Shown here piece by piece: positions 38,045 to 55,208 of a stretch of 55,429 nucleotides of DNA. Origin of the DNA: Gemmatimonadaceae bacterium (lineage in GTDB: Bacteria; Gemmatimonadota; Gemmatimonadetes; Gemmatimonadales; Gemmatimonadaceae); the NCBI GenBank assembly GCA_947457545.1, contig CANGXD010000008.1, forward strand, positions 1-55,429, read 5' to 3'. Each line of letters starts with the position of its first letter. The stretch's first letter is position 1. A program made the position numbers and the translations under genes. The notes beneath the pieces are model-generated. The model did not search any database. It was given only the letters and a program-made list of their open reading frames with translations, and was not told where the DNA came from.

Positions 38045-38053
38045 CGATTCTCC

Positions 38054-39831: not shown

Positions 39832-39843
39832 GCCCGCAGCAGG

Positions 39844-40059
39844 TCAGCGACGGGCAGCGCGCTGCGCCAGCCCGTAGAAGATACTGCCGAAGACCAACAT
39901 CACCCCGCCCCACACGAGGTTGATGTTGAGGCCGCCACTGCGCTCGTACATGGCCGTGTCACCGTTGGTGACGAGGCCGTACACGCCCAGAATCGCGCCC
40001 AACACCAGGAACAGTCCGCCGATCGGCAGACGGAGATCCATCGAGGCTCCACCACTCAT
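39844..40059 (-). CDS. Small two-helix membrane protein
   Basis: 71 residues with two hydrophobic helices (LPIGGLFLVLGAILGVYGLV and LVWGGVMLVFGSIFYGLA) joined by a polar loop, and a basic end (QRAARR). An alternative start is ATG 40041. It lies 15 bases behind the symporter on the same strand, so it is very likely cotranscribed and may be an accessory subunit. I recognise no named family, though small membrane proteins next to SSS symporters are known (for example the YhdT partner of PanF). Convergent with the kinase gene, 12 bases away. Confidence 0.8.
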   Translation of the reverse strand: MSGGASMDLRLPIGGLFLVLGAILGVYGLVTNGDTAMYERSGGLNINLVWGGVMLVFGSIFYGLAQRAARR

Positions 40060-40074
40060 CGTCGTTGTCCCGGA

Positions 40075-41799
40075 TCAGAAGAAGGCGACATTCAGGCCGA
40101 TCATCGCCACCATGACGACGACGGCAAACACACTGGGCTTCTCGTACCACACCCGCGCGTCATCCTTCGGCTTGGGCGTGAGCGAGAAGACCAGTCCTTC
40201 GAGTTCTGTTTCACGACGCGGCGCCGTCGCGAGACTCACCACGATCGTCACGACGAAGCAGGTTGTGAACGCCGCAATGGCGGTCCAGAAGGTCTGCGCC
40301 ATTTCGCTGGGGTAGTTGAGCAGCACCCCGAAGAAGCCACCCTTTACGCCAATTTCCGCGCCGTTGGCCAGCGAAATGCCGTGGTGAATGGCCGGGGCCA
40401 CCGTGCCCGCCACGAGGCCCCAGAACGCACCGTGTCCCGTGCTGCGCTTCCAGAACATCCCCAGCGCGAACGTCGCAAAGAGCGGCGCGTTCACGAAGGC
40501 AAAGACGAGCTGCAGGAACTCCATGATGTTGTTGAAGGCACCCGCGACGTACGCCGCGGCGACCGACAGCGCGATACCGCCCACCGTCGCGACACGCCCC
40601 ATCCACAGATAGTGTTCGTCGGTACCGGTCTTCTTGATGTGCGCCTGATAGATGTCGTACGTCCACACGGTGTTGAACGCCGTGACGTTGCCGGCCATGC
40701 CCGACATGAACGACGCGATCAGTGCGGTGAGGCCCAACCCAAGCATACCGGTGGGGAAGAGCTTCACCAGCATCATGGGCGTGGCCAGGTCGTAGTCGAG
40801 CACCACGTTGCCATTGGTGTCGAGCAGCGGCATCCCCGCCGGGGTGAGCTTGGCCGGAATGATGTTGTCACCCATCGCCAACGCAATCATGCCGGGCACG
40901 ATCACGAGGAACGGAAAGAACATCTTGGGTACGGCGGCAATGAGCGGGGTACGCCGTGCAGCGGTCATGCTGTCCGCGGCCATCGCGCGCTGCACCACCA
41001 GAAAGTCGGTGCACCAGTAGCCGAACGACAACACGAAGCCGAGGCCCATCACCATACCGAACCACTCGATACCGATGGAGTTGGTCGTTGCCGACCCCAT
41101 GCCCTGCCACACGTTGGTGTAGGCGTACTCCGGCAATCCTCGCTGCGTGGCGGCCGCCGCAAGCTTGCCGGTGAGCCCATCCCATCCGCCCACCTGCTTG
41201 AGCCCCACCCACACCAGCGGCGCGAAACCGAACACGATCATGAAGAACTGCAGCACTTCGTTGTAGATCGCGCTCGTGAGGCCGCCGAGCGTCACGTACG
41301 CGAGTACGATGACCGCCGACACCAGGATGCTGGTGTCGAAGTCCCAACCCAGGAGCAGGTTGAGCAGCTTGCCCATGGCATACATTGACACGCCGCTCGA
41401 AAACACCGTCATGGCCGCGAAGCCCAACGCGTTGAAGGTGCGCGTCTTTTCGTCGAAGCGGAGCTTGAGATACTCGGGGACCGAACGTGCCTTCGAGCCG
41501 TAGTAGAACGGCATCATGAAGATGCCCACGAACACCATGGCCGGAATGGCGCCAATCCAGTAGAAGTGCGCCGTGGCAATGCCATACTTGGCACCCGACG
41601 CCCCCATGCCGATCACTTCCTGCGCACCCAGGTTCGCCGACAGGAACGCGAGACCGGTCACCCAGGGAGGGAGCGACCGACCTGACAGGAAAAAGTCCGT
41701 CGAGGTGCGCATCTTGCGCCGCAGTACCCAGCCAATGCCGAGGACGACGACGAAGTAGATGGCCATCACGACATAGTCGATGGTGGTCAGCTGGGTCAT
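40075..41799 (-). CDS. Sodium:solute symporter (SSS family)
   Basis: 574 residues from ATG 41799, overlapping the stop of the VCBS gene (ATGA). Thirteen to fourteen helices. Family features: FFLSGRSLPPWVTGLAFLSA (36-55), GASGAKYGIATAHFYWIG, LGGLTSAIYNEVLQFFMIVF (161-180, the SSS signature) and FGYWCTDFLVVQRAMAA. It resembles the SGLT-like branch that moves sugars or related polyols with Na+ (a closer match than proline or pantothenate carriers), but the substrate cannot be fixed. In context it would be the inner-membrane uptake step for whatever the SusCD/VCBS/haloperoxidase proteins handle. Confidence 0.94.
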   Translation of the reverse strand: MTQLTTIDYVVMAIYFVVVLGIGWVLRRKMRTSTDFFLSGRSLPPWVTGLAFLSANLGAQEVIGMGASGAKYGIATAHFYWIGAIPAMVFVGIFMMPFYYGSKARSVPEYLKLRFDEKTRTFNALGFAAMTVFSSGVSMYAMGKLLNLLLGWDFDTSILVSAVIVLAYVTLGGLTSAIYNEVLQFFMIVFGFAPLVWVGLKQVGGWDGLTGKLAAAATQRGLPEYAYTNVWQGMGSATTNSIGIEWFGMVMGLGFVLSFGYWCTDFLVVQRAMAADSMTAARRTPLIAAVPKMFFPFLVIVPGMIALAMGDNIIPAKLTPAGMPLLDTNGNVVLDYDLATPMMLVKLFPTGMLGLGLTALIASFMSGMAGNVTAFNTVWTYDIYQAHIKKTGTDEHYLWMGRVATVGGIALSVAAAYVAGAFNNIMEFLQLVFAFVNAPLFATFALGMFWKRSTGHGAFWGLVAGTVAPAIHHGISLANGAEIGVKGGFFGVLLNYPSEMAQTFWTAIAAFTTCFVVTIVVSLATAPRRETELEGLVFSLTPKPKDDARVWYEKPSVFAVVVMVAMIGLNVAFF

Positions 41800-44700
41800 C
41801 TGGATGGCGTGAGAGGAGTGAATCGAGCGGACGACAGAAGTTGCAGCGTGGCACTGTTTCGTGCGACTGCCAGCAGTGGGGATTTCGTGCCGCGAGCGAC
41901 GAACGCGAGCCCTCGGATCTGTCCGTCGAGCGGGAAAGCCAGCGAGGGGTCGGCTGCACGAAAGCCGCCTCGACCGTCGCCAAGCATGAGCGTGCCACGC
42001 GACGCGTCGTAGCGACCGAGCACCGGCGGCACTCCGTACTGATTGCCGGCCAGCAGAATGTCGGGGTGCGAGTCCCCATTCGCGTCGAAAACCACGGAGG
42101 CGAACACGATCGAGAACTGCGCCTCGACGGGCAGCGCGGTCATCGTGAAGTGTCCACGTCCATCGTTCATCGCGACCGCGCTCTCGAAGCAATGTGCTTC
42201 GCGGCGCGCGGCCTTGGCGATCTCTGCCACGTCGAAGATGTCCTCGAGTCGACTGGCCCCGAAGGACGCAAACGACGGGTACTTGGCACGAATGGCGGGC
42301 ATGAGCTTCACCAGTTCATCGCGGCCAGCGAGGGGATACGACGTGCCACCGACGTAGCGGGTGATGATCTGCTTGGTGCTCCCGGTGCCGGTGAAGTCGT
42401 GCACGTACATCTGCACCGGCTCTTTGGCACTGGCCTTGAGCAGAGTGTTCTGCCCCACATTGCCAAGCACAAGATCTGGAGCACCGTCGTGGTTGAGATC
42501 GGCAACGGTCACACTGTTCCACCACCCCTCCGTGCCGACAAAGCCCGACACGGCGGCGCGCTCTTCGAGGCGCCCCTTGGCATTGTACCAGACGCGCACC
42601 GGCATCCACTCACCGACGACCACCAGATCCAGCGCCTTGTCGCCATCGACATCGAGCCACTTGGCATCGGTGACCAGACCGGCCTCGCTCAAACCCTTGG
42701 CCATGACGTCGGTGACGTCGGTAAAGCGACCCGATCCGTCATTCTGCAGCAAATGGCTTTGCGGGGTGCGACCGTATTCGCGGGCAACGACGCGAGTCCC
42801 GACAAAAAGATCCTGATCGCCGTCACCATCGAAGTCACCCGCCGTGACGACACTCCCATTCTCGCGGAAACCCGCCGGAAGCGCCGTCGTTGAACGCGTG
42901 AAGGTACCGCGACCATCGTTGAGATACAGCCGGTCGTCGAGGGCGTCGAACTCGCGCCAGAATTCGTTGCCGGCACTCACGACATACAAGTCGAGATCGC
43001 GATCATTATCGGCGTCGAAGAACAGTGCGTCGACATCTTCGGCAACACTGTCAGCGGCAAAGGTGGCGACACTCGACTCGCGGAACTGCCCATTCGGCTG
43101 CTGCACGAGCAACGAACCACGCTGCCACTTGGCGCCCCCAACGTACAGGTCATCGAGGCCGTCGCCATTCACGTCACCCACTGCCAGCGCCGGTCCTTCT
43201 GCCGACACCACGTGGGGCATGAGCGGCTCACGGTTGTAGTCGAGAAAATCGTTCTCGACGTGCACACGCGCCGCCCGCAGCAGCGGGGCCTCATCGCGTA
43301 GCGTTGGAACCGCGGCGCGCGGATACTGCCACGTGCCAGTGGCGCTGTCCTGATGCACCGTGATGGCGCGATCGAGCGCCACAGCGGTCATGACCTGATA
43401 GCGGGCATCGGGCCAGACAACGATGAGCGAGTCGGCGGTCGTCTGTGTGCCGAATCCGAAATGCAGCCGCCGGTCGACACTCGACTGAAAGCCACGCACC
43501 GGCTGCTGTTCCAGCAGCTGGCGATGCGTCCCCGTGACGGCAATGACTTTCGTACCAATTCCGTCGGTGTTGCGCGTATTGCCGACAAGCTTGACCTGCA
43601 GGTAATGACCGGCGTTGGGCAACTCCCGCATGCGACTGCGGTAAACGGCCAGCGGCGCATTGATGCGATTCACGACCAGGTCGAGCGCGCCATCATCGTC
43701 GAGATCGGCATACACCGACCCGTTCGAGAAGCCCTTGTCGCCCAACCCCCACGCTTCGGCCATGTTGGTGAACCGAAGCCCCCCCTCGTTGCGATAGGCA
43801 TGATTGGGGAGCGGAATCTGCGGCATCCGCTTGAGCAGCTCCTGATTTTCGGCAGGCGTGACACCACGCGCGAGTGCCGCCTGTGCGGCTTCGTTCCCGA
43901 TGTAATTGATGTAGTCGAGATCGTTCGGCCGACGGTAAATGCCGTTCGTGATGAACAGATCCTTGCGCCCGTCGTTGTCGAGGTCCGCGAAGAGCGGCCC
44001 CCAGCTCCAGTCACTCGCGGCGACTCCGGCGAGCAATCCGATCTCGGCGAACGATCCATCGCCGCGGTTGAGCTGCAGCGCATTGCGCGGGTATTGCACC
44101 GAGTAGCCGGCGCGCAACCGCATCTCGAAGAGATTCCATCCTTCGTAGCTGGCCGAGGTCTTGAAGATGGATTCCTGCTCGGGGAGCATATCGACCGTCA
44201 TGAGGTCGGGACGCCCATCATCGTTCATGTCGGCGGCGTCGGCACCCATGGAGAAGCGCGTCGTGTGACTGAACGACGACGTGCCGACTTCGGTGAAGTG
44301 GCCGCGGCAGTCGTTCAGGTACAGAAAGTCGTTCTCCTGAAAATCATTGGCCACATACAGATCCATGCAGCCGTCGCTGTTCACGTCACTGGCGACAACG
44401 CCGAGGCCGTACCCTTCCACGCCACCGAAGATACCGGCGGCAGCACTCACATCGGTGAAGCGGGCACCGTCGTTGCGATAGAGGCGATCGCCGGCAGTGG
44501 GGTGCCGCACATCGCGACGGGCCGCAACACCGATCTGCCGCTCGGTGTGCGCCGAGTGATTGAGGAGATAGAGATCGAGGTCGCCGTCGCGATCGTAGTC
44601 GAAGAAAAGCGCCTGCGTGGAGAAGCCGGAGAAGGCGAGCCCGTACGCGTCGGTGCTATCCGTGAATACGCCGGTGCCATTGTTGACGTACAGCGCGTTC

Positions 44701-45182
44701 CGGCCGTGCATGGTGAGGTAGTTCACCGCCGACACGTAAATGTCGAGCGCGCCGTCGCCATTCACATCGGCCATGGAGACGCCCGTCTTCCATCCCGGCG
44801 GTCCGCTCACACCGGCCTTGTCGGTGATGTCTTCGAAGCGGAAGTCGCCACGATTGCGATACAGCTTGTTGCCGTCGAGGTTGGACGACACGTATACGTC
44901 GGGCTTCCCGTCACCGTCTACATCGCCAACGGCGACACCACCGCCGTTGTAGTAGTAGAGGTAATTCAGAATGCTGAACTCGGGCGATTCCGGCAGGCGG
45001 TTTTCGAAGGTGATGCCGGTACGTGCTGCCGGCAGCAACTCGAACGCGCGCGGACCTGGCGCCGGTACAGCGGTAGCCACCGCGTCACCAGATGGGACCT
45101 TCTCCGTACAGCCGAGGGCTGCGAACGAGAACGCCAGCAGTACGGCCCCGTAGACACGAGGTCCTACGCGCCGAAGCTTCAC
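41796..45182 (-). CDS. CRTAC1-like VCBS/FG-GAP lipoprotein with UnbV/ASPIC domain (copy 1)
   Basis: 1128 residues, GTG start overlapping the haloperoxidase stop (GTGA). Lipoprotein signal AVLLAFSFAALGC, Cys25. The protein is built from calcium-binding FG-GAP/VCBS blades of the form DxDxDGxxDLYV: VAVGDVDGDGKPDVYVSS (82-99), MADVNGDGALDIYVS, FFDYDRDGDLDLYLLNHS, ASDVNSDGCMDLYVAND, AADMNDDGRPDLMTVDMLPE, FADLDNDGRKDLFITNG and more. Near residues 525-590 is the UnbV/ASPIC module (RGFQSSVDRRLHFGFG). A second propeller-like half follows (VGDVNGDGLDDLYVGGA). Family function is unproven; such proteins are surface beta-propellers for binding. Paralogue of the gene at 46561-49914. Confidence 0.92.
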   Translation of the reverse strand: MKLRRVGPRVYGAVLLAFSFAALGCTEKVPSGDAVATAVPAPGPRAFELLPAARTGITFENRLPESPEFSILNYLYYYNGGGVAVGDVDGDGKPDVYVSSNLDGNKLYRNRGDFRFEDITDKAGVSGPPGWKTGVSMADVNGDGALDIYVSAVNYLTMHGRNALYVNNGTGVFTDSTDAYGLAFSGFSTQALFFDYDRDGDLDLYLLNHSAHTERQIGVAARRDVRHPTAGDRLYRNDGARFTDVSAAAGIFGGVEGYGLGVVASDVNSDGCMDLYVANDFQENDFLYLNDCRGHFTEVGTSSFSHTTRFSMGADAADMNDDGRPDLMTVDMLPEQESIFKTSASYEGWNLFEMRLRAGYSVQYPRNALQLNRGDGSFAEIGLLAGVAASDWSWGPLFADLDNDGRKDLFITNGIYRRPNDLDYINYIGNEAAQAALARGVTPAENQELLKRMPQIPLPNHAYRNEGGLRFTNMAEAWGLGDKGFSNGSVYADLDDDGALDLVVNRINAPLAVYRSRMRELPNAGHYLQVKLVGNTRNTDGIGTKVIAVTGTHRQLLEQQPVRGFQSSVDRRLHFGFGTQTTADSLIVVWPDARYQVMTAVALDRAITVHQDSATGTWQYPRAAVPTLRDEAPLLRAARVHVENDFLDYNREPLMPHVVSAEGPALAVGDVNGDGLDDLYVGGAKWQRGSLLVQQPNGQFRESSVATFAADSVAEDVDALFFDADNDRDLDLYVVSAGNEFWREFDALDDRLYLNDGRGTFTRSTTALPAGFRENGSVVTAGDFDGDGDQDLFVGTRVVAREYGRTPQSHLLQNDGSGRFTDVTDVMAKGLSEAGLVTDAKWLDVDGDKALDLVVVGEWMPVRVWYNAKGRLEERAAVSGFVGTEGWWNSVTVADLNHDGAPDLVLGNVGQNTLLKASAKEPVQMYVHDFTGTGSTKQIITRYVGGTSYPLAGRDELVKLMPAIRAKYPSFASFGASRLEDIFDVAEIAKAARREAHCFESAVAMNDGRGHFTMTALPVEAQFSIVFASVVFDANGDSHPDILLAGNQYGVPPVLGRYDASRGTLMLGDGRGGFRAADPSLAFPLDGQIRGLAFVARGTKSPLLAVARNSATLQLLSSARFTPLTPSR

Positions 45183-46564
45183 CGGCCGGCGACAGTCGTC
45201 CCGGGCTTCGTGATGACACGCGCCACCACATTGAGCCCAACCTGCTTGCCTTGGCGCTGTCCTTCTTCGATCGCCTGACGATAGTGAATGCCGCCGTACA
45301 GGCGGCTGATGGCCGCCTCGTTTGCGGCCGCGTCAAAGCTGGTAAACGAACGCACCGGCATGCCGTATGGCACTTCGGACGAATCGGCGAACGCGAAGTT
45401 CTGACCGTAGATGGCCGTGAGGACCTGCGCGGCCGATGTCGAAATCACGCTATGTCCGCTGGGATACTCGGGGAATGGCGGCGTCTGGAGCAGCGGCGCC
45501 CATTTCTCGTCGATGTACGCGTTAATGACGGTTTCCGGGCGAATGACGCCCGACCGGAACTTCTCTTCCCACGCGGCAATGAAGCCGTCGGCGAGCGCCA
45601 TCGCCGTGCGCACGTAGGTATCGGCCGTCTGCAGTGCCGTGGCGTTGGCCTTGCGCGCGGCAATGCCGGCAATGCCCATCCAGTGGCCGCCCGGCGTGAT
45701 TTTCTTGGTGGCGAACATGGTGTGACCCTGCACGTTCATGACGTACGGGTTGCAATCCCAGAAGGCGGCAATGGCGCGCTGCTCTTCGGTGAGAGTGCGA
45801 CCGGTGTCGTACACCTCGAGCGCCTGCGCGTAGAAGGGCGTGCCCTTGGTAGAGTCGAACGCAAAGGGTACCGGCGGGCGGAACTGCGTCGCCGAGTCCA
45901 TGGCGAATGGCAGCACGGTTCCCCAGTTCGGTTCGACCGCGTCCATGTACGCTGGCGGTGTGGGAATCCATCGTCCGGGTTGCCGGGTCACGCTGAACTT
46001 CGGGAGTCCGCGCGACTCCTTGAACTTGTCCTTGCTCGCCCACGCCAACACGTGACGCGCGACGGTGTCACCGTAGGCAATGCTGCGCGCATACACATCG
46101 GCCGGCAGCGACGACTCATACCGCTGCGAGATCGCAGTGCGCACGGAGTCCATGCGCTCGCGCGAGAACGTCAGCTGATGACTCACGGTGAGCATCGCCC
46201 GCACACCGGCGAGGGCGTAGGAATACTCCTTGCTGCGATCGGGCGCCGGTACCGCGGGCATATTTCGCACCTGGCCCGCCAGCGAACGCCAGCTGGTATC
46301 GCTCTGTCGCAGCGCCTCGTAGCCGGCGATGCTCGCGTAGCTGTACACGCGGCTCGCCTGCGGCGGACTGAAGATGTCGTACACCATGGTGCCCGTGAGC
46401 TGCTCCATAGCCTCGTGCAGCGGCTCCGCAGAATTGAGCGTTTCCGGCGATGCGCTTGGCTTCGACTGGCAGCCGGTGGCCACCAGCAGCAGGACACAGC
46501 TCATGCGAACAAAACGCATACCGCGCAGCGCGCGCGTGAAGGGCAGTACCGTAGCGTTGCTCAT
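45179..46564 (-). CDS. Vanadium-haloperoxidase-like PAP2 lipoprotein
   Basis: 461 residues. Lipoprotein signal VRMSCVLLLVATGC (Cys32); ATG 46519 just before it is an alternative start. Active-site motifs of the vanadium haloperoxidase / acid phosphatase fold are in order: Lys335-x6-Arg342-Pro343 (EKFRSGVIRP), Pro-Ser-Gly-His 368-371 (PEYPSGH) and Ser420-Arg421-x5-His427 (SRLYGGIH). The Asp usual four residues after the last His in PAP2 phosphatases is Ala431 here. So oxyanion binding (vanadate or phosphate) is well supported, but halide oxidation versus phosphatase activity is not. Flanked on both sides by VCBS paralogues with 4-base overlaps. Confidence 0.9.
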   Translation of the reverse strand: MSNATVLPFTRALRGMRFVRMSCVLLLVATGCQSKPSASPETLNSAEPLHEAMEQLTGTMVYDIFSPPQASRVYSYASIAGYEALRQSDTSWRSLAGQVRNMPAVPAPDRSKEYSYALAGVRAMLTVSHQLTFSRERMDSVRTAISQRYESSLPADVYARSIAYGDTVARHVLAWASKDKFKESRGLPKFSVTRQPGRWIPTPPAYMDAVEPNWGTVLPFAMDSATQFRPPVPFAFDSTKGTPFYAQALEVYDTGRTLTEEQRAIAAFWDCNPYVMNVQGHTMFATKKITPGGHWMGIAGIAARKANATALQTADTYVRTAMALADGFIAAWEEKFRSGVIRPETVINAYIDEKWAPLLQTPPFPEYPSGHSVISTSAAQVLTAIYGQNFAFADSSEVPYGMPVRSFTSFDAAANEAAISRLYGGIHYRQAIEEGQRQGKQVGLNVVARVITKPGTTVAGR

Positions 46565-49500
46565 GGGCGACCCATGGAAAAGACGAGGGGAGCAGCGTTG
46601 TTGCGGGCGACGACTACCTGTACCCCGCGCCTGGTACGGAGCGTGGCAATACCACGCGTTTGTCCTGGTACGCGGAATCCGCTCTCCGCCGGTCGCAGCG
46701 CGGTGAACGTGCCCTTCTCACCACCAAGCAGCACGAGGCCATCGCTGGCCGCCATGCGCCCGAACTCCGGCTTGACGCCATCGAAGTTGCCGGCGAGCAG
46801 AATATCCTGACGACCGTCGCCGTTGACGTCACGCGCGGCCAAGCCGTACACCGGCGCCATCTGCGCCTCCAGCGGCAGCGGTTCGAACGCAAAGGTGCCA
46901 TCGGCACTGCGACGCAGCACGGCGCTCTCGAAGCGATACACCTGCTTCACGACCGCATCGCTGCGCTCGGCGGCGGGAACGACATCGTCGAGCGTCTTGA
47001 GCGCGTAATCCTTGAAGTTGAGAAAGCGTGCCTTCCAGGGCGGCACCGCTTTGATGAGGTCATCGCGCAGCACCAGCGGATACTGCTTCCCGCCGTTGTA
47101 CATGCCGATGACCTGTTCGACGAAATCATTCTTGTCGAAGTCCTTCACGATCATGGTGAGCGGCTCGTTGGCGCTGGCGTGCAGACGGATATTCCGGCCG
47201 AAATTTCCAAGCACGAACTCGCTGCGCCCATCGCCATCGAGGTCGGCGGCGATGATGCGGGTCCACCAGCCGTCGCTCTTCTCGAGTCCCTTCGCCATGA
47301 GGCGTTCGAACCTTCCGGCGCCGCGGTTTCGGTACACCACCACCGGCATCCATTCGCCCACGACGATGAGATCGAGCTTGCGATCGCCATCGATGTCGTG
47401 CCAGAGCGCGTCGGTGACCATGCCGATGGTCTTGAGCCCGGGCGCATTCGCCACGACGTCGGTGAAGTGACCGCGGCCATCGTTCAGCAGCAATTGGCTG
47501 CTGGGGTCCATACCGTAACGCCACGGAATACTGCGGGCACCCACGAAGAGATCGAGATCCCCATCGGCATCGATATCGCCTGCGGTTACCACACTCCCAC
47601 TGGTGAGCGTGGCCGGTAGGGCGTTCGCCGCGCGCGTGAAGCGTCCGCGTCCATCGTTGAGATAGAGCCGATCTTGAAGCGCCGGACTATCTTCGCTGAA
47701 CTCGTTGCCGCCGCTCACGACGTACAGGTCGCGATCCCCGTCACGATCGGCGTCGAAGAAGAGTGCGTGAACATCTTCCGACGCCGCATCGAGATCAAAC
47801 GCGGCGTTGGCCAGCGGCGCGAACGTTCCGGCCGCCGATTGCACGAAGAGCTTGCCCGCCTGCTCTTTCGCGCCGCCCAGGTACACGTCGTCGAGACCAT
47901 CGCCATTGACATCGCCAACGGCCATTGCCGGCCCGTCGGTGGAGAGCATGTGCGGAATGAGCCGTTCGCGGTCGAAGTCGACGTAGTCGTTCTCAGCGTG
48001 CGTGAACGTGAGTCCGGACGCCGCGGTCGTGTTGACCAGCAGCGGCGTTACGGCAGGAGCGACAAACGGTGCGGCCGTCGGCGCATTGGCTGTCTGCGCG
48101 ATGGTGATGGTCGTATCGGGGGCGATATTCGCCTGCACCGTGCGTGTCCCGTTGGGCCACTCCACCACGAGCGAGTCGACACGGGCATGGTCGCCCAAGC
48201 CGAACGAGAGCGCATAGTCGACGCTCGACTGGAAGCCGCGCGCCGGATACAGCTCCTGCATGTAGCGATCGTCCGCCGCGAAGAGCGTGGCGCGCGCACC
48301 CACGGCATGGCTGTTGCGCCCCTCGCCCGTGAGCCGCAGCTGCAGCCAGTGTCGGTTCTTGATGAGCGTCCGTGCATTGTTGCGATAGACGAAGCTCTCG
48401 GCGTTCACGTTGTTCACGACAAGATCGAGCACGCCGTCGCCGTCGAGATCCCCGTAGGCCGCACCGCTCGAGATATTGGGGGCATCGAGGCCCCACGACT
48501 TCGCCTGATTGCTGAAGGCCCAGTTCCCGTCGTTTCGGAACGCGTAGTCGGGGATGGGCGTGGAGCTCATGGCGTTGATGAGACGCATGAAATCAACGCG
48601 CGGCCCGCTGGCCTCGCGTTGCATCGTGGTACGATCGGCAAGGAATGCGACGTAGTCCTGCGAGGTCACGTCGCGCGCGAGGCCATTCGTGACGTACACG
48701 TCCTTGCGGCCATCGAGGTCGAGATCCGCAATGAGCGCACTCCAGCTCCAGTCGGTTTCGGCGGTGCGCGTGAGATAGCCCACATCACTGAAGGTGCCGT
48801 CACCGTTGTTGCGCTGCAGCATGTTGCGCATGAGCTGGTGATGGTACCCATCACGCACCTTGGCCATGTACACGTCCCACCCTTCGTACATCGCCGTCGT
48901 CTTGATGCGGAATTCGTCTTCCGGCATCATGTCGGTGGTGTACAGGTCGGGCCAGCCATCGTTGTCCACGTCACCGATGTCCATGCCCATGGAGAAGTAG
49001 CTCGACACCGGCATGACCTGGTCGAGTACCTCCTTGAACGTGCCGTTTTTCTGATTGAGGTAGAGGTAATCGCGCTCGAAGAAGTCATTCGAGACGTAGA
49101 CGTCGGGCCAGCCGTCGCGATTCACATCACCCACGCCGATGCCAAGGCCGAAGGCAATCTCGGCGCTGAACAACCCGGTGGCTTCACTCACCTCAGTGAA
49201 GCGCTCCCCGTCGTTGCGATAGAAATGATGCCCGCCGTACGGATGACGCTCGGCGCGCGTGTTGCGCAGGCCGAAGCTGTTGACTGGACGCGGCGAGTTG
49301 TTGATGACGAAGAGATCGAGGTCTCCGTCGCGATCGTAGTCGAAAAATGCGGCGTGTGTGGACCAGCCTTCATCGGCGATGCCGTATTGGCGCGCCATTT
49401 CCTTGAAGGTTGGCACCGAGTCGGCCCCGTTGCCCTGATTGATCCAGAGGGTATTTGCGCGGGTCGCGGGCTCGCCGTCGCCGGCGTGACTCACGTAGAT

Positions 49501-49914
49501 GTCCAGTTTCCCGTCGCCATTGACGTCGGCGAGCGTGACGCCGGTGGTCCACGGCTGCTGATCGCGAAAGCCAGCGTCCTTGGTGATGTCGCGAAAACGG
49601 AATTGCCCCTGGTTCATATACAGCGAGGGGCCATCCTGATTGGACGTGAGGATGACTTCCGGGCGCTTGTCGCCGTTGAGATCGCCAATCGCGACACCGC
49701 CGCCGTTGTAGAAGTTGCGGTAGGTGAACACGTTGCGCTCTTGCGAGTCCACGACGCGGTTGGTGAACCGGATGCCGGTGTAGTCGGAGGGCATCTGCGT
49801 GAACAACGTGGAATCGACCGCGGGGGCGTCGGCACGGTGCGCGGTGGACTCAGCGCATGCCGCAAGGGCCAGGAGCGGGAGCGCCGGCAGCAGGCGCGGA
49901 AGAAAGTGTTTCAC
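46561..49914 (-). CDS. CRTAC1-like VCBS/FG-GAP lipoprotein with UnbV/ASPIC domain (copy 2)
   Basis: 1117 residues, GTG start. Lipoprotein signal LLPALPLLALAACAES (Cys20). Same build as copy 1: opening blade VAIGDLNGDKRPEVILTS, LADVNGDGKLDIYVSHAG, FFDYDRDGDLDLFVINNS, VGDVNRDGWPDVYVSND, IGDVDNDGWPDLYTTDMMPE, IADLDLDGRKDVYVTNG; UnbV/ASPIC near 525-590 (RGFQSSVDYALSFGLG); second half from VGDVNGDGLDDVYLGGA. The two copies align end to end by eye. Its stop overlaps the haloperoxidase start (ATGA). It lies 90 bases behind susD with a hairpin in between. Confidence 0.92.
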   Translation of the reverse strand: MKHFLPRLLPALPLLALAACAESTAHRADAPAVDSTLFTQMPSDYTGIRFTNRVVDSQERNVFTYRNFYNGGGVAIGDLNGDKRPEVILTSNQDGPSLYMNQGQFRFRDITKDAGFRDQQPWTTGVTLADVNGDGKLDIYVSHAGDGEPATRANTLWINQGNGADSVPTFKEMARQYGIADEGWSTHAAFFDYDRDGDLDLFVINNSPRPVNSFGLRNTRAERHPYGGHHFYRNDGERFTEVSEATGLFSAEIAFGLGIGVGDVNRDGWPDVYVSNDFFERDYLYLNQKNGTFKEVLDQVMPVSSYFSMGMDIGDVDNDGWPDLYTTDMMPEDEFRIKTTAMYEGWDVYMAKVRDGYHHQLMRNMLQRNNGDGTFSDVGYLTRTAETDWSWSALIADLDLDGRKDVYVTNGLARDVTSQDYVAFLADRTTMQREASGPRVDFMRLINAMSSTPIPDYAFRNDGNWAFSNQAKSWGLDAPNISSGAAYGDLDGDGVLDLVVNNVNAESFVYRNNARTLIKNRHWLQLRLTGEGRNSHAVGARATLFAADDRYMQELYPARGFQSSVDYALSFGLGDHARVDSLVVEWPNGTRTVQANIAPDTTITIAQTANAPTAAPFVAPAVTPLLVNTTAASGLTFTHAENDYVDFDRERLIPHMLSTDGPAMAVGDVNGDGLDDVYLGGAKEQAGKLFVQSAAGTFAPLANAAFDLDAASEDVHALFFDADRDGDRDLYVVSGGNEFSEDSPALQDRLYLNDGRGRFTRAANALPATLTSGSVVTAGDIDADGDLDLFVGARSIPWRYGMDPSSQLLLNDGRGHFTDVVANAPGLKTIGMVTDALWHDIDGDRKLDLIVVGEWMPVVVYRNRGAGRFERLMAKGLEKSDGWWTRIIAADLDGDGRSEFVLGNFGRNIRLHASANEPLTMIVKDFDKNDFVEQVIGMYNGGKQYPLVLRDDLIKAVPPWKARFLNFKDYALKTLDDVVPAAERSDAVVKQVYRFESAVLRRSADGTFAFEPLPLEAQMAPVYGLAARDVNGDGRQDILLAGNFDGVKPEFGRMAASDGLVLLGGEKGTFTALRPAESGFRVPGQTRGIATLRTRRGVQVVVARNNAAPLVFSMGRP

Positions 49915-49942
49915 ATCTCGAGGGGATATCTACCACGAATGC

Positions 49943-49976
49943 CACGGCCTGCGTTCGATCGCGAACGCAGGCCGTG
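49943..49976 (-). terminator. Hairpin between susD and the VCBS genes
   Basis: A perfect 15-bp stem (49943-49957 with 49962-49976) and a 4-base loop. There is no T run on the minus strand after it, so full termination is unlikely. A partial terminator or an mRNA-stabilising hairpin that sets susCD above the downstream genes is a better reading. Confidence 0.6.
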
Positions 49977-50004
49977 ACAACTACAGTGAACCTACCCCAC
50001 CAGC

Positions 50005-51576
50005 TTAGTAGCCGGGGTTCTGCTTGAGCAGGGGGTTGGTTTCGATCTGGTTCTGCGGGATGGGCATGAGGATGCGGTACGGGGCCGAGGCCTGCTTGAA
50101 CAGGCGGGCATTGGTGTACGTACCGGCACGGATCATGTCCTGACGACGCTTGGCTTCGCCGACGAACTCGAACAGACGCTCGTTGAAGATGGCGTCGCGG
50201 AGTGCGGCCTGCGAAATCCCCGTCGGCAACGGCTTGGCCGGCGTGAAGGCGCGAGCACGCACCTGGTTCACGATCGCCACGGCCGCCGGCGTCTGCCCCA
50301 GTTCGTTCAGGGCTTCGGCCTTGATGATCATCATTTCGGCCAGTCGGAAGTACACGTAGTCGTTTCCGTTGTCACCGCCGTTGAAGGCCGGGTCGACGGG
50401 GTACTTGTAGATACGAGCGCCTTCGCCTTCACCCGCCTGCGAGACGTCGCGGATTTCCGGCGTAAAGACCAGCGGGTTACCCGCGCGGTCCCGAATCGGA
50501 GCACCCGTCAGCAAGTCGACCTGCGGACCGACCAGGAAGACCTTCTTGCGGTCGTCGGCATCGTCGAACGAGTTGTACGTGGTGGCGATGGTGGCGAACC
50601 CGTTCCACGGCGAGGCGCTGAACGAGTTGTAGTGCAGACCACGCATCACGAACGTCAGGCCGATGCCCGGCACCTTGGTGCTGTGACGGATGACGAAGAT
50701 GTTTTCCGGCGAGTTTTCGTTCGTCGCCGTGAAGTTCGCACGCCAGTTGGCCGAAAGGCTGTAGCGTCCCGAGTTGAGCACGCGGTCTGCTGCGGCTGCC
50801 GCTTCGGTCCACTTGGCCGCGCCGCGGGTGAGGCCGGTAGGAGTAACCGTACCGGTGAACACCTGCGCGTTGACGTACATGTTGGCCAACACGGCATCGA
50901 CGGCACCCTTGGTCAGGCGGCCATAGTTGGCCGCCGGCCAGGCGTCGGGAAGCGCCGCGCGCGCGTCGGTCATTTCCTTCTCGATGAAGGCAAAGACCTG
51001 GGCGCGGGTGGCCTGCTCACGCGGCTTCACTTCGGTGGTCGTGACGATGGGCACGCCGCCGAAGAAGTCCATGAGCAGGTAGTAGTAGAAGGCGCGCAAT
51101 GCCTTCATTTCCGCCTGCACGACGGCCTTGTCGGGCACTTCGGTCGTCTCGAGCGCCTGCAGCACGACGTTGGCACGAGCCACGCCGCCGAACAGGTCGT
51201 TCCACACGCCCGAGATGTCTTCGAGGCCGGAGCCCGACGTGGGCGTCCAGGTGTGGCGATACAGATCGAGCCAGCGGCCGTTGTCGAACCAGTCGGAGCC
51301 GCGCGTGGGCACGACGTTTTCGTCCGACGAGACCTGGCTCAGGTTGTAATAGCCCCACATGGTGCCGCGAAGCGCGGCGTACACGGAGGCCACACCACCA
51401 ATGACTTCGTCGCTGTTCTTGAAGAAGTTATTGGGGGTGATGGCGCTGGTCGGGGACTCTTCAAGGTCGGTGCAACCCTGCACCGTAAATACCGTCGCGG
51501 GCGCCGCGAGCAACGCGGCGCTGATGCGACCGGCGCGCCAGAGCGACGCGAAGCGGGTCTTGTGTGAATTTCGCAT
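50005..51576 (-). CDS. RagB/SusD-family outer-membrane lipoprotein
   Basis: 523 residues. Lipoprotein signal ISAALLAAPATVFTVQGC, Cys about residue 35, followed by LEESPTSAITPNNFFKNSD. Typical SusD landmarks: EVIGGVASVYAALRG, FYYYLLMDFFGGVPIV, NVYVNAQVF-like helix (AVLANMYVNAQVF), the FRLAEMMIIKAEALNELGQ helix, and the ending YRILMPIPQNQIETNPLLKQNPGY. It caps the SusC barrel and helps pull in ligand. Ligand type cannot be read. Gap to susC is 26 bases. Confidence 0.96.
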   Translation of the reverse strand: MRNSHKTRFASLWRAGRISAALLAAPATVFTVQGCTDLEESPTSAITPNNFFKNSDEVIGGVASVYAALRGTMWGYYNLSQVSSDENVVPTRGSDWFDNGRWLDLYRHTWTPTSGSGLEDISGVWNDLFGGVARANVVLQALETTEVPDKAVVQAEMKALRAFYYYLLMDFFGGVPIVTTTEVKPREQATRAQVFAFIEKEMTDARAALPDAWPAANYGRLTKGAVDAVLANMYVNAQVFTGTVTPTGLTRGAAKWTEAAAAADRVLNSGRYSLSANWRANFTATNENSPENIFVIRHSTKVPGIGLTFVMRGLHYNSFSASPWNGFATIATTYNSFDDADDRKKVFLVGPQVDLLTGAPIRDRAGNPLVFTPEIRDVSQAGEGEGARIYKYPVDPAFNGGDNGNDYVYFRLAEMMIIKAEALNELGQTPAAVAIVNQVRARAFTPAKPLPTGISQAALRDAIFNERLFEFVGEAKRRQDMIRAGTYTNARLFKQASAPYRILMPIPQNQIETNPLLKQNPGY

Positions 51577-51602
51577 GGTCGGTTCGGTTTCGTCCGGAGT
51601 GA

Positions 51603-54600
51603 TCAGAACTGGACGCGGAGTCCCGACGTGAACGTCCGGGCACGCGGGTAAACGAGATAATCGACGCCGCGCGACGCGAGGCCGGCATCGACGAACACCT
51701 CAGGATCGTATCCCGAGTACGGCGTGAAGAGGAGCAGGTTGTCGCCCGACACGAACAAGCGCGCCGTGTTCGCCTTGGTTCCCGGGATCTTGAACGTGTA
51801 GCCAACCGTCACGTTCTGGAGACGGAAGAACGAGCCGTCTTCGATCCAGCGCGACGAGTAGACGGCGGGCTCGGTGAGCGCGTCCGTCTGGGTGAGTGCG
51901 CTGCGGAGGAAGTTGCGTCCCTGGAGGACCGCCGACTGCGTGGAGTACACGAGCGCCGTGTTGTTGAAGACATCGCGGCCGAACTCACCGCGCCACAGGT
52001 AGCTCATGTCGAACTTGTTCCAGCGCAGGTTGCCGCGCCAGCCGAGGCTGAAGGCCGGGTTGGCATCGCCGATGATGCCGAAGTCGTCGGCATCGGGCGA
52101 CGTCGTCGTGCCGCTTTCCTTGCGGCTCGTGATCACGCCGTTGGTGCGCGTGACGTCGTAGTTCTTGAACACCTGCTTGCCTTCGGCATTCACGTTCACG
52201 AACGTCGGGCCCCAGAACGTGCCGAGCGGCTGGCCCGGGATGATGCGCTGCGCCGTGTTACCCGACTGACCCTGACCGGAGACGCTCGACGTCGTGATGA
52301 ACGAGCGGCCACCAAGATCATCGACCGTGTTGCGTTCGATCGAGGCCACGATGCCGGTGCTGAACGAGCGATCCTTCTTGTCGAGCAGGTTGGCGTCGAA
52401 GCTGAATTCGATACCGGTGTTGTGCAGGCTACCGACATTTTCGAGACGCGTCGGCACGAGCGCCGGCTGCGGCACGGCGACCGTGAGGAGCAGGTCGCTG
52501 GTGTTCTTGCGGTAGTACTCGAGCGTACCGGTGTACTTGTTGTCCTTGAAGCCGAATTCGGCCGCGACGTTGTACTGCGCCGTCTGCTCCCACTTGAGGA
52601 GCGGGTTTTCGTTCCGCGTGGGCACGACACCGGTGACGATGTTGTCGCCGAACGGATAGCGCGCACCGTCGTTGGGCTCGAGGAGGATGAGCGAGGCGTA
52701 CGGCGACACGGCCTGGTTACCCTGCAAGCCGTAGCCGGCGCGCAGACGCAGGTTCGAGAAGCCCTTGCCCTGCATCCAGCTTTCGTCGCTGATCTTCCAG
52801 CCAGCCGAGAAGGCCGGGAAGACGGCCCACTTGTTACCGGCACCGAAGCGCGACGAACCGTCGCGGCGAATCACGCCGGTCAGGAAGTAGCGGTCCTTGA
52901 AGCTGTAGTTGGCCTTACCGAAGAAGGAGACCAGGCGGCTCTGCTCGCGGAACGAGAAGGGCGCGACCAGCGTGCCACCGCCACCGAGGTTGTTGAAGCT
53001 GAACGCATCGGTGAGGTAGTTACGACCTTCCGCACCGAACTCGCCGTTGTCGAAGTCGGTGTATTCGTAGCCGCCCACCACTTCGATTTCCTGCGACTCG
53101 GAGAGACGCGGCGCGAAGGTGAGGAGCGACTGCAGCGTGTTGTTGCTGAGGGCGCGGTTCACCTGACGCGCACGACCGTTCCACTCGGCGCCGACGGCGC
53201 TGGCACGCGGGAGGTACGTCTTGCGAACACCGCTCGTGCGGTCGGTACCGACGTTCACGGAAGCCGTGAGGTAGTCGGTCAGGCTGTACGACGCCTGGAT
53301 GTTACCGAGCGTGCGGTTGGTCGTGGCGATGTCGGCCACCTGTTCGGCGATCGCGACGGGGTTACGCACCGACTGACGGCCCGGGCCGATTTCGTAGAAC
53401 GACGTGATGCCGTTCGTCGTCGTCGTGATCGGACGCGTCGGGTTGAAGATCACCATGTTGGTGAAGACGCCGCCTTCAAAGCCACCCGTGTTTTCGAACG
53501 GGAGGTAGTCGTTGTCCACCTTGGACGCCGTCATGTTGAAGTTCAGGCGGAGCTTGCCGTCGATCGCGCTGTGGTTCGCATTGAAGCGACCCTGGAAGCG
53601 ACGGAAGCCGTTCGACACCACCACGCCGTTCTGATCGAGGTAGTTGAGCGACGCGCGATACTGCGTCGTGTTCGTACCACCGGTGAACGACAGGTTGTGG
53701 TTCACCGTGGAGCTGGAGCGCATGAGCTCCTTCTCCCAATCGGTGTTGGAGGTGCCGAGGTTGGTCAGCGCCGACTGGGCGAGCTTGCCCGAGGTGACGA
53801 GCCCCTGCACGAACGAGCGGTATTCATTGCCCGAGAGCACGTCGAGCGTGTTCGACGGCGCCGAAGCAGCGACGAACGTTTCGTATTCAACCTGCGAGAC
53901 ACCGGCCGCGCCGCGGCGCGTTTCGATGAGCACCACGCCGTTGGCGCCGCGGGAGCCGTAAATGGCCGTCGCCGAGGCGTCCTTGAGGACCGTGATGTTC
54001 GCGATGTCGCTCGGGTTGAGCATGTTGAGCGGATTACGCGCCAGCGCGGCGCCACCGCCGATGCCGATGCCCGAGGCTTCGGTCTGATCGTTCTGGATGG
54101 GCACGCCGTCGATGACGTACAGCGGCTCGTTGGAGGCCGAGATCGAGGTGCCGCCACGGATACGGATCTGGGCGCCAGCGCCCGGCTCACCGTTGTTGGC
54201 CACCACGTTCACACCAGCGACACGACCCGTGAGCAGACCGGTCGCGTTGGGGATCACGCCGACGTTGGCGTCAGCTCCCTTGATCGTCGCCACGGCGCCC
54301 GTGATCGCTTCCTTCCGCTGCTGGCCGTAACCGGTCGTGACCACCCCGGTGAGCTGCGCGGCGATCGCGTTCAGCGCGACTTCGACGCTGGCCTGGCCGT
54401 TGGCCGTCACGGTGACCGTGACTTCCTTGGCCGAGTAGCCGATGCGCGAGACGCGAATCCGCTGCTGGCCGGCCGGCACGGCTGGCAGCAGGAAGCCGCC
54501 ATCGTTACGCGTGTAGGTGCCGACCTGTGTCCCGACGACTTGGACCGATGCATTTGCGAGCACACCGGCAGTCGCGGAGTCAACCACGCGGCCAGAGACT

Positions 54601-54686
54601 CTGCCCGTTTGCTGGGCACTGACCTGGCTCGCCGAGAGCAGCGTACCCGCTGCTGCCGCGGCCAACCAACGGACGCCTACCGCCAT
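51603..54686 (-). CDS. SusC/RagA-family TonB-linked outer-membrane protein
   Basis: 1027 residues from ATG 54686 with GGAGG nine bases upstream; the longer frame is leader sequence. Signal peptide VRWLAAAAAGTLLSASQVSAQ. Carboxypeptidase-regulatory-like domain about 28-105, TonB-box-like VVTTGYGQQRK (about 119-129), plug with LLTGRVAGVNVV, AQIRIRGGTSISASNEPLYVIDG and ITVLKDASATAIYGSRGANGV. Barrel to the C-terminal strand TSGLRVQF ending in Phe. Energised by TonB to import ligands too large for porins, together with SusD. First gene of the cluster, with a leader of roughly 250 bases. Confidence 0.96.
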   Translation of the reverse strand: MAVGVRWLAAAAAGTLLSASQVSAQQTGRVSGRVVDSATAGVLANASVQVVGTQVGTYTRNDGGFLLPAVPAGQQRIRVSRIGYSAKEVTVTVTANGQASVEVALNAIAAQLTGVVTTGYGQQRKEAITGAVATIKGADANVGVIPNATGLLTGRVAGVNVVANNGEPGAGAQIRIRGGTSISASNEPLYVIDGVPIQNDQTEASGIGIGGGAALARNPLNMLNPSDIANITVLKDASATAIYGSRGANGVVLIETRRGAAGVSQVEYETFVAASAPSNTLDVLSGNEYRSFVQGLVTSGKLAQSALTNLGTSNTDWEKELMRSSSTVNHNLSFTGGTNTTQYRASLNYLDQNGVVVSNGFRRFQGRFNANHSAIDGKLRLNFNMTASKVDNDYLPFENTGGFEGGVFTNMVIFNPTRPITTTTNGITSFYEIGPGRQSVRNPVAIAEQVADIATTNRTLGNIQASYSLTDYLTASVNVGTDRTSGVRKTYLPRASAVGAEWNGRARQVNRALSNNTLQSLLTFAPRLSESQEIEVVGGYEYTDFDNGEFGAEGRNYLTDAFSFNNLGGGGTLVAPFSFREQSRLVSFFGKANYSFKDRYFLTGVIRRDGSSRFGAGNKWAVFPAFSAGWKISDESWMQGKGFSNLRLRAGYGLQGNQAVSPYASLILLEPNDGARYPFGDNIVTGVVPTRNENPLLKWEQTAQYNVAAEFGFKDNKYTGTLEYYRKNTSDLLLTVAVPQPALVPTRLENVGSLHNTGIEFSFDANLLDKKDRSFSTGIVASIERNTVDDLGGRSFITTSSVSGQGQSGNTAQRIIPGQPLGTFWGPTFVNVNAEGKQVFKNYDVTRTNGVITSRKESGTTTSPDADDFGIIGDANPAFSLGWRGNLRWNKFDMSYLWRGEFGRDVFNNTALVYSTQSAVLQGRNFLRSALTQTDALTEPAVYSSRWIEDGSFFRLQNVTVGYTFKIPGTKANTARLFVSGDNLLLFTPYSGYDPEVFVDAGLASRGVDYLVYPRARTFTSGLRVQF

Positions 54687-54929
54687 AAACTGATGCCTCC
54701 ATGGGGCTGTAAAGACCGCGACCTGGTGGGTCTCATTGGCCAGATACAATTCGGACCGTCGGTCCGGACTACATCTATAGAATGAGGGGAGTGGTCGCAG
54801 TGAGTGGGGTGAACCGAGGGAGGTTCGGCCGCCAACAACCACTCGCACCTAGGGCACGACCGGTCGACGACGGCTTTGTCAAGCAAGACCCGCGACCCGG
54901 AAGGGGGTGAGTCGCGTGTAGGAAGGGAT

Positions 54930-54968
54930 GTGTAACGCTATGAAACAAGTGTGAGCGGGAACTGTCAA
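54930..54968 (-). promoter_or_regulatory. Candidate susC promoter with shared motif
   Basis: On the minus strand TTGACA (54968-54963) is a perfect -35 hexamer. Fourteen bases on lies TTGTTTCATAGCGTTACAC (54948-54930). TTTCAT within it is 17 bases from TTGACA, at the -10 place, though a poor TATAAT. The same motif stands upstream of the divergent gene. The start codon of susC is about 250 bases further. Confidence 0.5.
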
Positions 54969-55035
54969 GACTCTTTTTGGATTCAGGGCGTTTTTTGCCG
55001 AGTTTTTAGCCGGCGCTGGCGCCCGCACGCTCCCA

Positions 55036-55074: not shown

Positions 55075-55208
55075 GCCGCGGCGACGCGGCCGACGCTCCC
55101 GCTCCCCCCGCCCGCCCTTCCCCGACGCGACGCCCGCCGATCCCCCCGGCGCCTGCCCAAGTCGTTTCGGATCAAGTACTTCTCCTCCGTGCCCCGCACG
55201 AGCTGCTC

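Follow-up and report, generated by a model that had tools for sequence, protein, structure and literature searches.

The seven-gene array at one end of the window (the whole 55,429-nucleotide stretch of a Gemmatimonadaceae contig analyzed here) encodes, in order, a SusC-SusD pair, a large propeller protein (VCBS1), a PAP2 protein, a second propeller protein (VCBS2), a sodium:solute symporter (SSS), and a 71-aa membrane protein. We propose, with a probability of about 0.57, that this operon serves to acquire small alpha-glucosides across the outer membrane and that in it two CRTAC1-type propellers stand in for surface glycan-binding proteins (SGBPs) and a coupled haloperoxidase is optional. The alpha-glucoside class is suggested by the MFS transporter and trehalase genes downstream, by the SGLT-like symporter, and by GH65, GH37, GH13, GH31, GH97, and glycerol genes in relatives. 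This sugar context had been overlooked in the initial annotation of this DNA. Trehalose and related compatible solutes are the most likely substrates. Because two binding proteins of 1100 aa seem excessive for a disaccharide, the actual substrate may be larger.

Table 1. Genes of the array and of its downstream flank in the window
Feature	Coordinates	Strand	Evidence and remarks
SusC/RagA TonB-dependent outer-membrane transporter	51603..54686	-	TIGR04056 683 bits (cut-off 368)
SusD-like lipoprotein, substrate-binding lid	50005..51576	-	PF07980 (SusD_RagB) 110 bits; VQGC
VCBS1, CRTAC1-type lipoprotein, 1117 aa	46561..49914	-	propeller + UnbV + second propeller; FG-GAP_3, UnbV_ASPIC
PAP2/vanadium iodoperoxidase-type lipoprotein (VIPO), predicted	45179..46564	-	PAP2 40 bits (cut-off 27)
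VCBS2, second CRTAC1-type propeller lipoprotein, 1128 aa	41796..45182	-	FG-GAP_3 261 bits, UnbV_ASPIC 68 bits
Sodium:solute symporter (SSS), SGLT-like	40075..41799	-	SSF 193 bits
71-aa small membrane protein	39844..40059	-	translation; homologs adjoin symporter in relatives
Uridine-kinase/PRK-like gene, convergent	38890..39831	+	PF00485 49 bits; true start later than ORF start
Convergent ORF, C-terminal part GH100-like	36884..39211	+	PF12899 39 bits (cut-off 24); start uncertain
MFS transporter	36680..38098	-	PF07690 84 bits
Trehalase (GH37) lipoprotein	35040..36740	-	PF01204 486 bits; NF009774 585 bits (cut-off 560); LAAC lipobox

All seven ORFs, described in the initial annotation as a single-strand envelope system, were confirmed on the minus strand, with families called using Pfam and NCBIfam (Table 1). 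SusC starts at the ATG at 54686, and a longer ORF with a GTG start begins at 54848. Exact 4-bp overlaps join VCBS1 to PAP2 (ATGA), PAP2 to VCBS2 (GTGA), and VCBS2 to the symporter (ATGA); the overlaps had been reported only from VCBS2 to the symporter, where they are exact, but the series begins two junctions earlier. The remaining junctions are gaps of 26, 90, and 15 bp. Lipoprotein calls combined a lipobox pattern with a reading of the N-termini by eye, and lipobox-like cysteines were found in all four products for which such signals had been claimed: the pattern scan gave LAAC in VCBS1 and ATGC in PAP2, and the reading by eye gave VQGC in SusD and ALGC in VCBS2. A consensus scan of positions 38500-55429 found no excess of terminator-like (13 versus 11.8 ± 4.0 in shuffles) or promoter-like sites (1 versus 2.9 ± 1.9), and, with counts at shuffle level, the presumed single transcript is neither backed nor denied. 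In the search for a linked sugar-responsive regulator, the window reaches the contig end upstream of SusC. Given that the gene order is kept in other genomes and that the 4-bp overlap between VCBS1 and PAP2 is retained at 10 of the 13 loci compared, counting that of the window (the L039 pairs, as well as PAP2/VCBS2 in L040 and L042, were left out as cut contigs or wrong copies), the array is not a chance arrangement.

The array has the tandem susC-susD genes of polysaccharide utilization loci (PULs). The best PDB chain for SusC is the SusC of the dextran utilisome (8aa4), and the best PDB homologs of SusD are 9sje/9sjj. The symporter matches SGLT1/vSGLT at 192-199 bits versus 76 bits for the iodide symporter, and sodium/iodide import as the purpose was set aside on this comparison. 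The 71-aa protein has no family in Pfam/NCBIfam, and its homologs adjoin the symporter in L033-L036 and L067.

Over its full length the PAP2 protein is homologous to the vanadium iodoperoxidase of Zobellia (48-49% identity; E = 1e-142 against 4cit/4usz by phmmer), and the vanadium-haloperoxidase-like active site noted at the outset is borne out more strongly than had been claimed. All vanadate-site residues compared (K335, R342, S369-G370-H371, R421, and H427) are identical to those of the iodoperoxidase. Its predicted fold superimposes on 4usz with TM scores of 0.84/0.93 (0.93 on target), an rmsd of 1.7, and 48% identity (Foldseek, E = 7e-36). The closest structure matches are the iodoperoxidase and NapH-type and fungal chloroperoxidases (E = 7e-36 to 5e-10). 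Class A acid phosphatases are not the closest structural relatives by Foldseek, as they match at E of about 1e-2 only, over about half the length, and algal bromoperoxidases do no better. A 12-residue loop is common to the PAP2 protein and the iodoperoxidase and missing in the distant PAP2 relatives aligned, although it is modeled with low confidence (residues 275-286, pLDDT under 50). Homology and the predicted fold thus point to an enzyme of the vanadium iodoperoxidase type, which would oxidize halide. The initial annotation had left a choice between removal of a phosphate- or sulfate-like group and halogenation or oxidation; the full-length homology weakens the former and upholds the haloperoxidase type.

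Both VCBS proteins carry FG-GAP_3 and UnbV_ASPIC domains over the Pfam cut-offs; VCBS2 has 12 motifs and is about 46% identical to VCBS1, whose place in the CRTAC1/ASPIC-UnbV family a further comparison also bore out. Neither matches a known SGBP family in Pfam, and both have an SGBP-like position and a lipobox. In the structure comparison, a dehydratase does not stand out from other seven-bladed propellers that match equally well or better (LGI1, 31.3; KICSTOR, 29.1), and a sequence search did not turn it up. We know of no established physiological role for large CRTAC1/UnbV propellers or for bacterial vanadium iodoperoxidases.

Downstream of the seven genes, a sugar-type MFS transporter and a trehalase span 1.7-4.8 kb, with the trehalase 3 kb away. 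The trehalase probably starts at 36683, as read from its ORF, and would then overlap the MFS stop by 4 bp. The MFS protein is weakly similar to sucrose/H+ symporters (TIGR01301, 90 bits; cut-off, 511), and copies 72-91% identical to it adjoin the gene set in L033, L035, L036, and L038. Two convergent genes stand between the array and this pair. The uridine-kinase/PRK-like gene is conserved in L033, L034, L067, and L068; the GH100-like ORF overlaps the oppositely oriented MFS gene and has a longer homolog in L066 that weakly matches alkaline invertases (27 bits). Because these genes cut off the MFS/trehalase pair, a common transcript with the array is at most presumed.

In a sample of 150 genomes of the phylum Gemmatimonadota, 25 have a VCBS1 ortholog (a hand-read list that includes four partial hits). 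Locus genes were called with a simple ORF caller, which can miss or mis-start genes, and one representative per neighbor cluster was compared with Pfam. Co-occurrence in other genomes, set beforehand as a test of the initial annotation, was found: VCBS1 lies directly upstream of PAP2 for all 11 close PAP2 orthologs, and SusC-SusD lies upstream in all nine whose contig extends far enough. The haloperoxidase is an optional insert in the array. Of the 25 VCBS1-ortholog genomes, 14 have no close PAP2 ortholog, and SusC-SusD-VCBS1 is kept in 11 of the 12 such genomes examined. The enzyme therefore cannot carry out a substrate-processing step that the set as a whole depends on, contrary to the pathway originally suggested. 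Trehalase is present in 16 of the 25 genomes versus 4 of the 125 without a VCBS1 ortholog (Fisher P = 5.5e-12, with independence inflated by kinship), at similar frequency with VIPO (7/11) and without it (9/14). Thirteen of the 16 trehalase genes share a contig with a VCBS1/VCBS2-type gene, within about 18.5 kb (distances read by hand from coordinates), and three are on another contig (G022, G047, and G090, the last only 48% identical). The nine VCBS1-ortholog genomes that lack this trehalase include the close relatives G055 and G079. The glycoside hydrolase that PULs call for also occurs within co-directional sets: L156 and L157 read SusC-SusD-VCBS1-VCBS2-trehalase in one direction, with no PAP2. 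In L158 a GH97 gene directly follows VCBS1. GH31 and LacI lie near the set in L131, and LacI is also close in L068 (nine flank proteins scanned). Ten neighbors scanned from the distant PAP2-VCBS-SusC loci L044, L047, and L052 include no sugar gene.

Related arrays also occur in Bacteroidota, as the initial annotation had indicated for similar partners; VIPO is placed differently there, adjoining VCBS2, GH65, or GH37. Among the best 80 of at least 580 confirmed relatives (76 loci from outside Gemmatimonadota and 4 from within, of which L066 and L069 duplicate the contigs of L034 and L039 and so are not independent of the phylum sample), GH37, GH65, GH13, or glycerol genes accompany 23 of 38 PAP2 loci with VCBS versus 6 of 38 without. 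In stretches over 15 kb, which omit 27 shorter loci (6 with VCBS and 21 without), the counts are 22 of the 32 loci with VCBS and 2 of the 17 without (P = 2e-4, again with independence inflated by kinship); the other 10 of these 32 long Bacteroidota loci lack every sugar gene counted. VIPO instead directly follows an FAD oxidoreductase in ten Aquirufa/Cytophagaceae-type loci. This amine-oxidase-like protein is a candidate peroxide source, whose nearest NCBIfam models (hydroxysqualene dehydroxylase, protoporphyrinogen oxidase, and desaturase) all score below cut-off. Another candidate source in Bacteroidota, a putative glycerol-3-phosphate oxidase, scores 491 bits against a cut-off of 840 and 336 bits (cut-off, 360) with the glycerol-3-phosphate dehydrogenase model.

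We suggest the following course of uptake. The lipid-anchored double propellers VCBS1 and VCBS2 would fill the role of SGBPs, gathering substrate and passing it to the SusD lid and then to the SusC barrel; the capture at the surface and import through SusC advanced in the initial annotation thus seem right. The trehalase lipoprotein would cleave trehalose in the envelope, and the SGLT-like symporter and the MFS carrier would bring the sugar into the cell. At the same surface, the VIPO-type lipoprotein may oxidize halide with hydrogen peroxide. Tentatively, and with less than even confidence, we see its job as consuming peroxide and making short-lived hypohalite around the feeding complex, for protection and/or attack on neighbors, with no part in sugar processing. 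A bolder version seems distinctly unlikely to us: that the CRTAC1/UnbV double propellers form a new class of lipoproteins that handle sugars at the surface, in a SusCD "halo-utilisome," whose hypohalite, made at the transporter mouth, damages neighboring phototrophs or other microbes so that leaked compatible solutes can be harvested.

Sugar genes and haloperoxidase might instead occur together through operon hitch-hiking by an enzyme with a general surface role (attachment, biofilm, or defense) unrelated to uptake. Half of the non-Gemmatimonadota loci (38/76) show no VCBS in the stretch examined, 21 of these 38 spanning under 15 kb, and the Aquirufa-type placement fits such a role. The 4-bp coupling to VCBS1 conserved in Gemmatimonadota and the different placement beside VCBS2, GH65, or GH37 in Bacteroidota speak against it, and we hold it to be rather doubtful. 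If the enzyme tailored the substrate before import, by halogenating or oxidizing an aromatic or lipid linked to sugar, the many arrays that keep SusC-SusD-VCBS1 without a close VIPO would be hard to explain, and the dehydratase match lends no help; we consider such tailoring very improbable.

The oxyanion site that holds vanadate in haloperoxidases is also that of PAP2 acid phosphatases, and halide is scarce in freshwater or soil. Both points count for a surface phosphatase that would remove phosphate from alpha-glucosides, whether phosphorylated or phosphodiester-linked, for import and cleavage, as do the kinases and glycerol genes near the set in relatives and, going by the title of the entry, a phosphate intermediate trapped in apo-chloroperoxidase (3bb0). 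The iodoperoxidase-like fold over the full length, set against the partial acid phosphatase matches, and the 12-residue loop argue otherwise, and we regard this explanation as unlikely. Scavenging of halide, with iodide oxidation by VIPO, uptake of the product, and iodide import through the symporter, has a parallel in Arenibacter C-21, which carries five or more homologs of the Zobellia enzyme and accumulates iodine in a process that needs glucose, oxygen, and calcium (PMC5064120). Such a function is highly improbable for the array, given the SGLT-like symporter, the similar trehalase frequency with and without VIPO, and a SusCD pair that iodide should not need.

The alpha-glucoside acquisition operon that we favor would make redox/halogen chemistry part of an outer-membrane sugar-uptake system. 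The gene set ties vanadium iodoperoxidases and CRTAC1/UnbV propellers to one apparatus in two phyla, and the operons with and without the enzyme offer a built-in comparison that, with a short list of substrates, makes the roles testable at the bench. Among the open-access papers listed in literature searches, none describes the whole set. Its parts can be compared with several known systems. The Zobellia galactanivorans enzyme ZgVIPO (4cit/4usz) resembles the window protein over its full length, in fold, in vanadate-site residues, and in the extra loop that lies between FWDCNP and PGGHW. It differs in having D where the window protein has E (residue 333) and in about half of its sequence (48-49% identity), and the window protein is a predicted lipoprotein whose gene overlaps two propeller genes. 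Murine CRTAC1 (9etn) shares the calcium-motif propeller and UnbV domain (residues 35-609 at 2.3 A); the window proteins add a second propeller, are predicted lipoproteins, and are encoded with SusCD. The main text on FjDexUL of Flavobacterium johnsoniae (PMC10316084) mentions neither FG-GAP nor haloperoxidase. That locus is described with a SusE/F-type binding protein, unlike the window, and its FjGH65A (PMC8626586) is the closest match of the GH65 in the Bacteroidota relative L082 (772 bits). In the levan and dextran SusCD PULs/utilisomes (PMC7618045), surface-type lipoproteins likewise come after SusC-SusD, and genes for glycoside hydrolases and sugar transporters lie close by. The window departs from them in that two CRTAC1-type double propellers replace the known SGBPs, a haloperoxidase lies among the overlapping genes, a disaccharidase takes the place of an endo-acting surface hydrolase, and the whole lies outside Bacteroidota.

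All seven ORFs of the operon are present where the initial annotation had placed them, and domain scans returned the families that it had assigned: SusC/RagA, SusD, two FG-GAP and UnbV_ASPIC proteins (the propeller lipoproteins VCBS1 and VCBS2), PAP2, and an SSF symporter (SSS). In the same scans, the 71-amino-acid protein had no family match. Three successive junctions (VCBS1/PAP2, PAP2/VCBS2, and VCBS2/SSS) are 4-bp overlaps. The window is an entire contig (G000:C8, 55,429 bases) of a 4.63-Mb genome assembled into 321 contigs, and in this 85.8% complete assembly only the VCBS1 and VCBS2 genes match UnbV_ASPIC. Its closest relatives with a name are Gemmatimonas and Gemmatimonadetes MAGs, which makes it a probable relative of Gemmatimonas. 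Elsewhere in the window, a row of genes for a Bmp/PnrA substrate-binding protein, an ABC ATPase, two BPD_transp_2 permeases, and an MFS protein is probably a nucleoside-type importer.

A PDB search with the PAP2 protein matched the Zobellia vanadium iodoperoxidase (4cit/4usz) over residues 17 to 449 (E = 1e−142), and its AlphaFold2 model (pLDDT 87.1) superposes on 4usz with TM-scores of 0.84/0.93, an rmsd of 1.7 Å, and 48% identity. The alignment pairs 431 residues with the Zobellia enzyme, 211 of them identical, and the vanadate-site residues K335, R342, S369-G370-H371, R421, and H427 are unchanged; a loop common to both proteins (residues 275 to 286) is modeled with low confidence. The next structural matches are NapH-type and fungal chloroperoxidases (TM of ~0.6 on the query). 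It is possible that the PAP2 protein acts as a phosphatase, or that it tailors the substrate of the system; acid phosphatases match the model at an E of ~0.01 only, as do algal bromoperoxidases. The Zobellia protein to which the vanadium iodoperoxidase (VIPO) assignment refers is named an iodoperoxidase in its PDB title and in citing papers. Homologs of this type occur in Arenibacter C-21, in which iodine uptake requires glucose, oxygen, and calcium (PMC5064120). A halogenase-mining preprint places undescribed VIPO-like sequences in one cluster (PMC12871659), and expression of vIPO3, one of the Zobellia iodoperoxidases, is reported to be higher on a brown alga than on alginate (PMC9296495).

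Across a sample of 150 Gemmatimonadota genomes, PAP2 matches (E ≤ 1e−20) were found in 30, 11 of which, the window's included, hold close orthologs (55 to 100% identity). VCBS1 lies directly upstream of PAP2 in all 11. VCBS2 is located downstream in all 10 loci in which the contig extends beyond PAP2; in four of them (L037, L039, L040, and L041), small or other ORFs lie in between. SusC-SusD lies upstream in 9 of the 9 whose contig reaches that far. In L035 and L037, an overlapping frame displaced PAP2 from the ORF calls, and the order there was read from separate analyses. The symporter and 71-amino-acid genes follow VCBS2 in five of seven loci with continuing contigs (the window and L033 to L036) but not in the other two (L037 and L038), and the VCBS1/PAP2 4-bp overlap is kept in 10 of 13 loci tested. 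VCBS1 matches (E ≤ 1e−40) occur in 58 of the 150 genomes. In a subset of 25, the VCBS1 ortholog has ≥56% identity (four partial hits included), and 14 of these 25 lack a close PAP2 ortholog. Twelve of the 14 were fetched, and 11 show SusC-SusD-VCBS1, whereas the stretch from the twelfth (L159) is a contig with VCBS2. The gene set thus occurs with or without the haloperoxidase, which is optional. VCBS2 is on the same strand of the same stretch in 8 of those 11.

Downstream of the seven genes, the same strand encodes an MFS carrier and a trehalase of family GH37. Two genes in convergent orientation, one for a kinase and the other a GH100-like ORF, lie between these and the seven genes. The trehalase scores 585 bits against NF009774 (cut-off, 560) and has its own lipobox; the genes beside it encode another TonB-dependent receptor and a protein with von Willebrand factor A homology. 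This trehalase was detected in 20 of the 150 genomes (E ≤ 1e−60), namely in 16 of the 25 with a VCBS1 ortholog versus 4 of the 125 others (Fisher test, P = 5.5e−12). Thirteen of the 16 genomes have the trehalase gene within ~18.5 kb of a VCBS1- or VCBS2-type gene on the same contig, and G022, G047, and G090 carry it on a different one. Given that trehalase is found in 7 of the 11 VIPO-positive and 9 of the 14 VIPO-negative genomes of this subset, it goes with the propellers and not with the haloperoxidase. Two VIPO-lacking loci (L156 and L157) read SusC-SusD-VCBS1-VCBS2-trehalase in one direction, and in L158 a GH97 gene immediately follows VCBS1. The symporter is nearest to SGLT1/vSGLT (199 to 192 bits), with the iodide symporter far lower (76 bits). 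SusC is nearest to 8aa4, the SusC of the dextran utilisome (PMC7618045; 320 bits versus 240 for the levan SusC), which is weak support because few SusC structures exist.

Scanning GTDB contigs with nine close orthologs yielded at least 580 relatives, and the 80 best were retained. Four of these come from Gemmatimonadota; the titles of the remaining 76 nearly all name Bacteroidota groups, among them Rhodothermaceae and Salinibacteraceae. Within this set of 76, a VCBS relative is present within the fetched stretch of 38. The recurring orders combine into the composite SusC-SusD-VCBS-VCBS-GH65-PAP2-GH37, SSS or MFS, then aquaglyceroporin-glycerol kinase-glycerol-3-phosphate dehydrogenase/oxidase-like-GH13, although no fetched locus holds every gene together. 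GH37, GH65, GH13, or glycerol genes accompany 23 of the 38 loci with VCBS versus 6 of the 38 without it, and 22 of 32 versus 2 of 17 when only loci of >15 kb are counted (Fisher test, P = 2e−4). The GH65 of one such locus (L082) is closest to FjGH65A (772 bits), reported as a kojibiose hydrolase (PMC8626586). The alpha-1,2-glucosidase together with glycerol genes suggests glucosylglycerol as a possible substrate, and the trehalase suggests trehalose; both are compatible solutes.

In Zobellia russellii (L143), three consecutive VCBS proteins directly precede a homolog of the iodoperoxidase that shares 47% identity with the PAP2 protein of the window, and thus the genus of the characterized enzyme has the association too. 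In ten Aquirufa/Cytophagaceae-type loci (L097, L106, L110, L115, L117, L120, L122, L124, L130, and L134; neighbor families taken from one representative each), the homolog directly follows an FAD-dependent oxidoreductase, no VCBS was found in the fetched stretches, and a small globin-like gene is next in nine (the L120 contig ends there). A more distant type (L043, L044, L046, L047, L050, L052, L053, L058, and L060) has a PAP2 haloperoxidase-like protein (30 to 44% identical), then a VCBS protein of 1,216 to 1,397 amino acids, and the stretch also holds a SusC gene. This fold is therefore paired with such propellers in a second arrangement as well. The distant PAP2 proteins that were aligned lack the 12-residue loop, and neighbors in L052 and L047 have DsbA-like thioredoxin domains. 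Some loci also carry, adjoining VCBS1, a stand-alone ORF of mostly 144 to 186 amino acids with a signal and a lipobox-like cysteine. It has the SusC/RagA plug signature only (~43 to 50% identical to window SusC residues 205 to 312), mostly sits between VCBS1 or PAP2 and VCBS2, and is absent from the window.

Coordinates of plug-only ORFs and of other features
Feature	Location	Coordinates	Strand
Plug-only ORF	L154	9793-10269	Opposite to operon
Plug-only ORF	L155	8525-9001	Opposite to operon
Plug-only ORF	L157	10353-10787	Opposite to operon
Plug-only ORF	L160	9182-9682	Opposite to operon
Plug-only ORF	L162	6790-7350	Opposite to operon
Plug-only ORF	L165	10147-11058	Opposite to operon
Plug-only ORF	L040	3135-3599	Opposite to operon
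VCBS genes and iodoperoxidase homolog	L143	3-11359	
TonB-dependent receptor and von Willebrand factor A protein	Window	30574-34896	Same as trehalase
Candidate nucleoside-type importer	Window	24258-30266	+

We propose, at somewhat better than even odds (roughly 0.57), that the operon is an alpha-glucoside acquisition apparatus with VIPO peroxide/halide chemistry at its surface. The propeller lipoproteins would gather the sugar, SusD/SusC would import it, and the envelope trehalase with the SGLT-like and MFS carriers would complete its use. The VIPO lipoprotein, whose gene overlaps both propeller genes, would most likely carry out this chemistry there. What the enzyme is for is the weakest link of the proposal: it may be a peroxide shield, a weapon, or both. 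Our confidence is slightly lowered because algal bromoperoxidases match no better than phosphatases and because three trehalases are on other contigs.

Every single part of the gene set is of a known kind, and our searches of open-access papers turned up none that describes these parts together. We therefore regard the gene set as a variant of the SusCD utilization system, in which the propellers are possibly a new class of surface binding protein.
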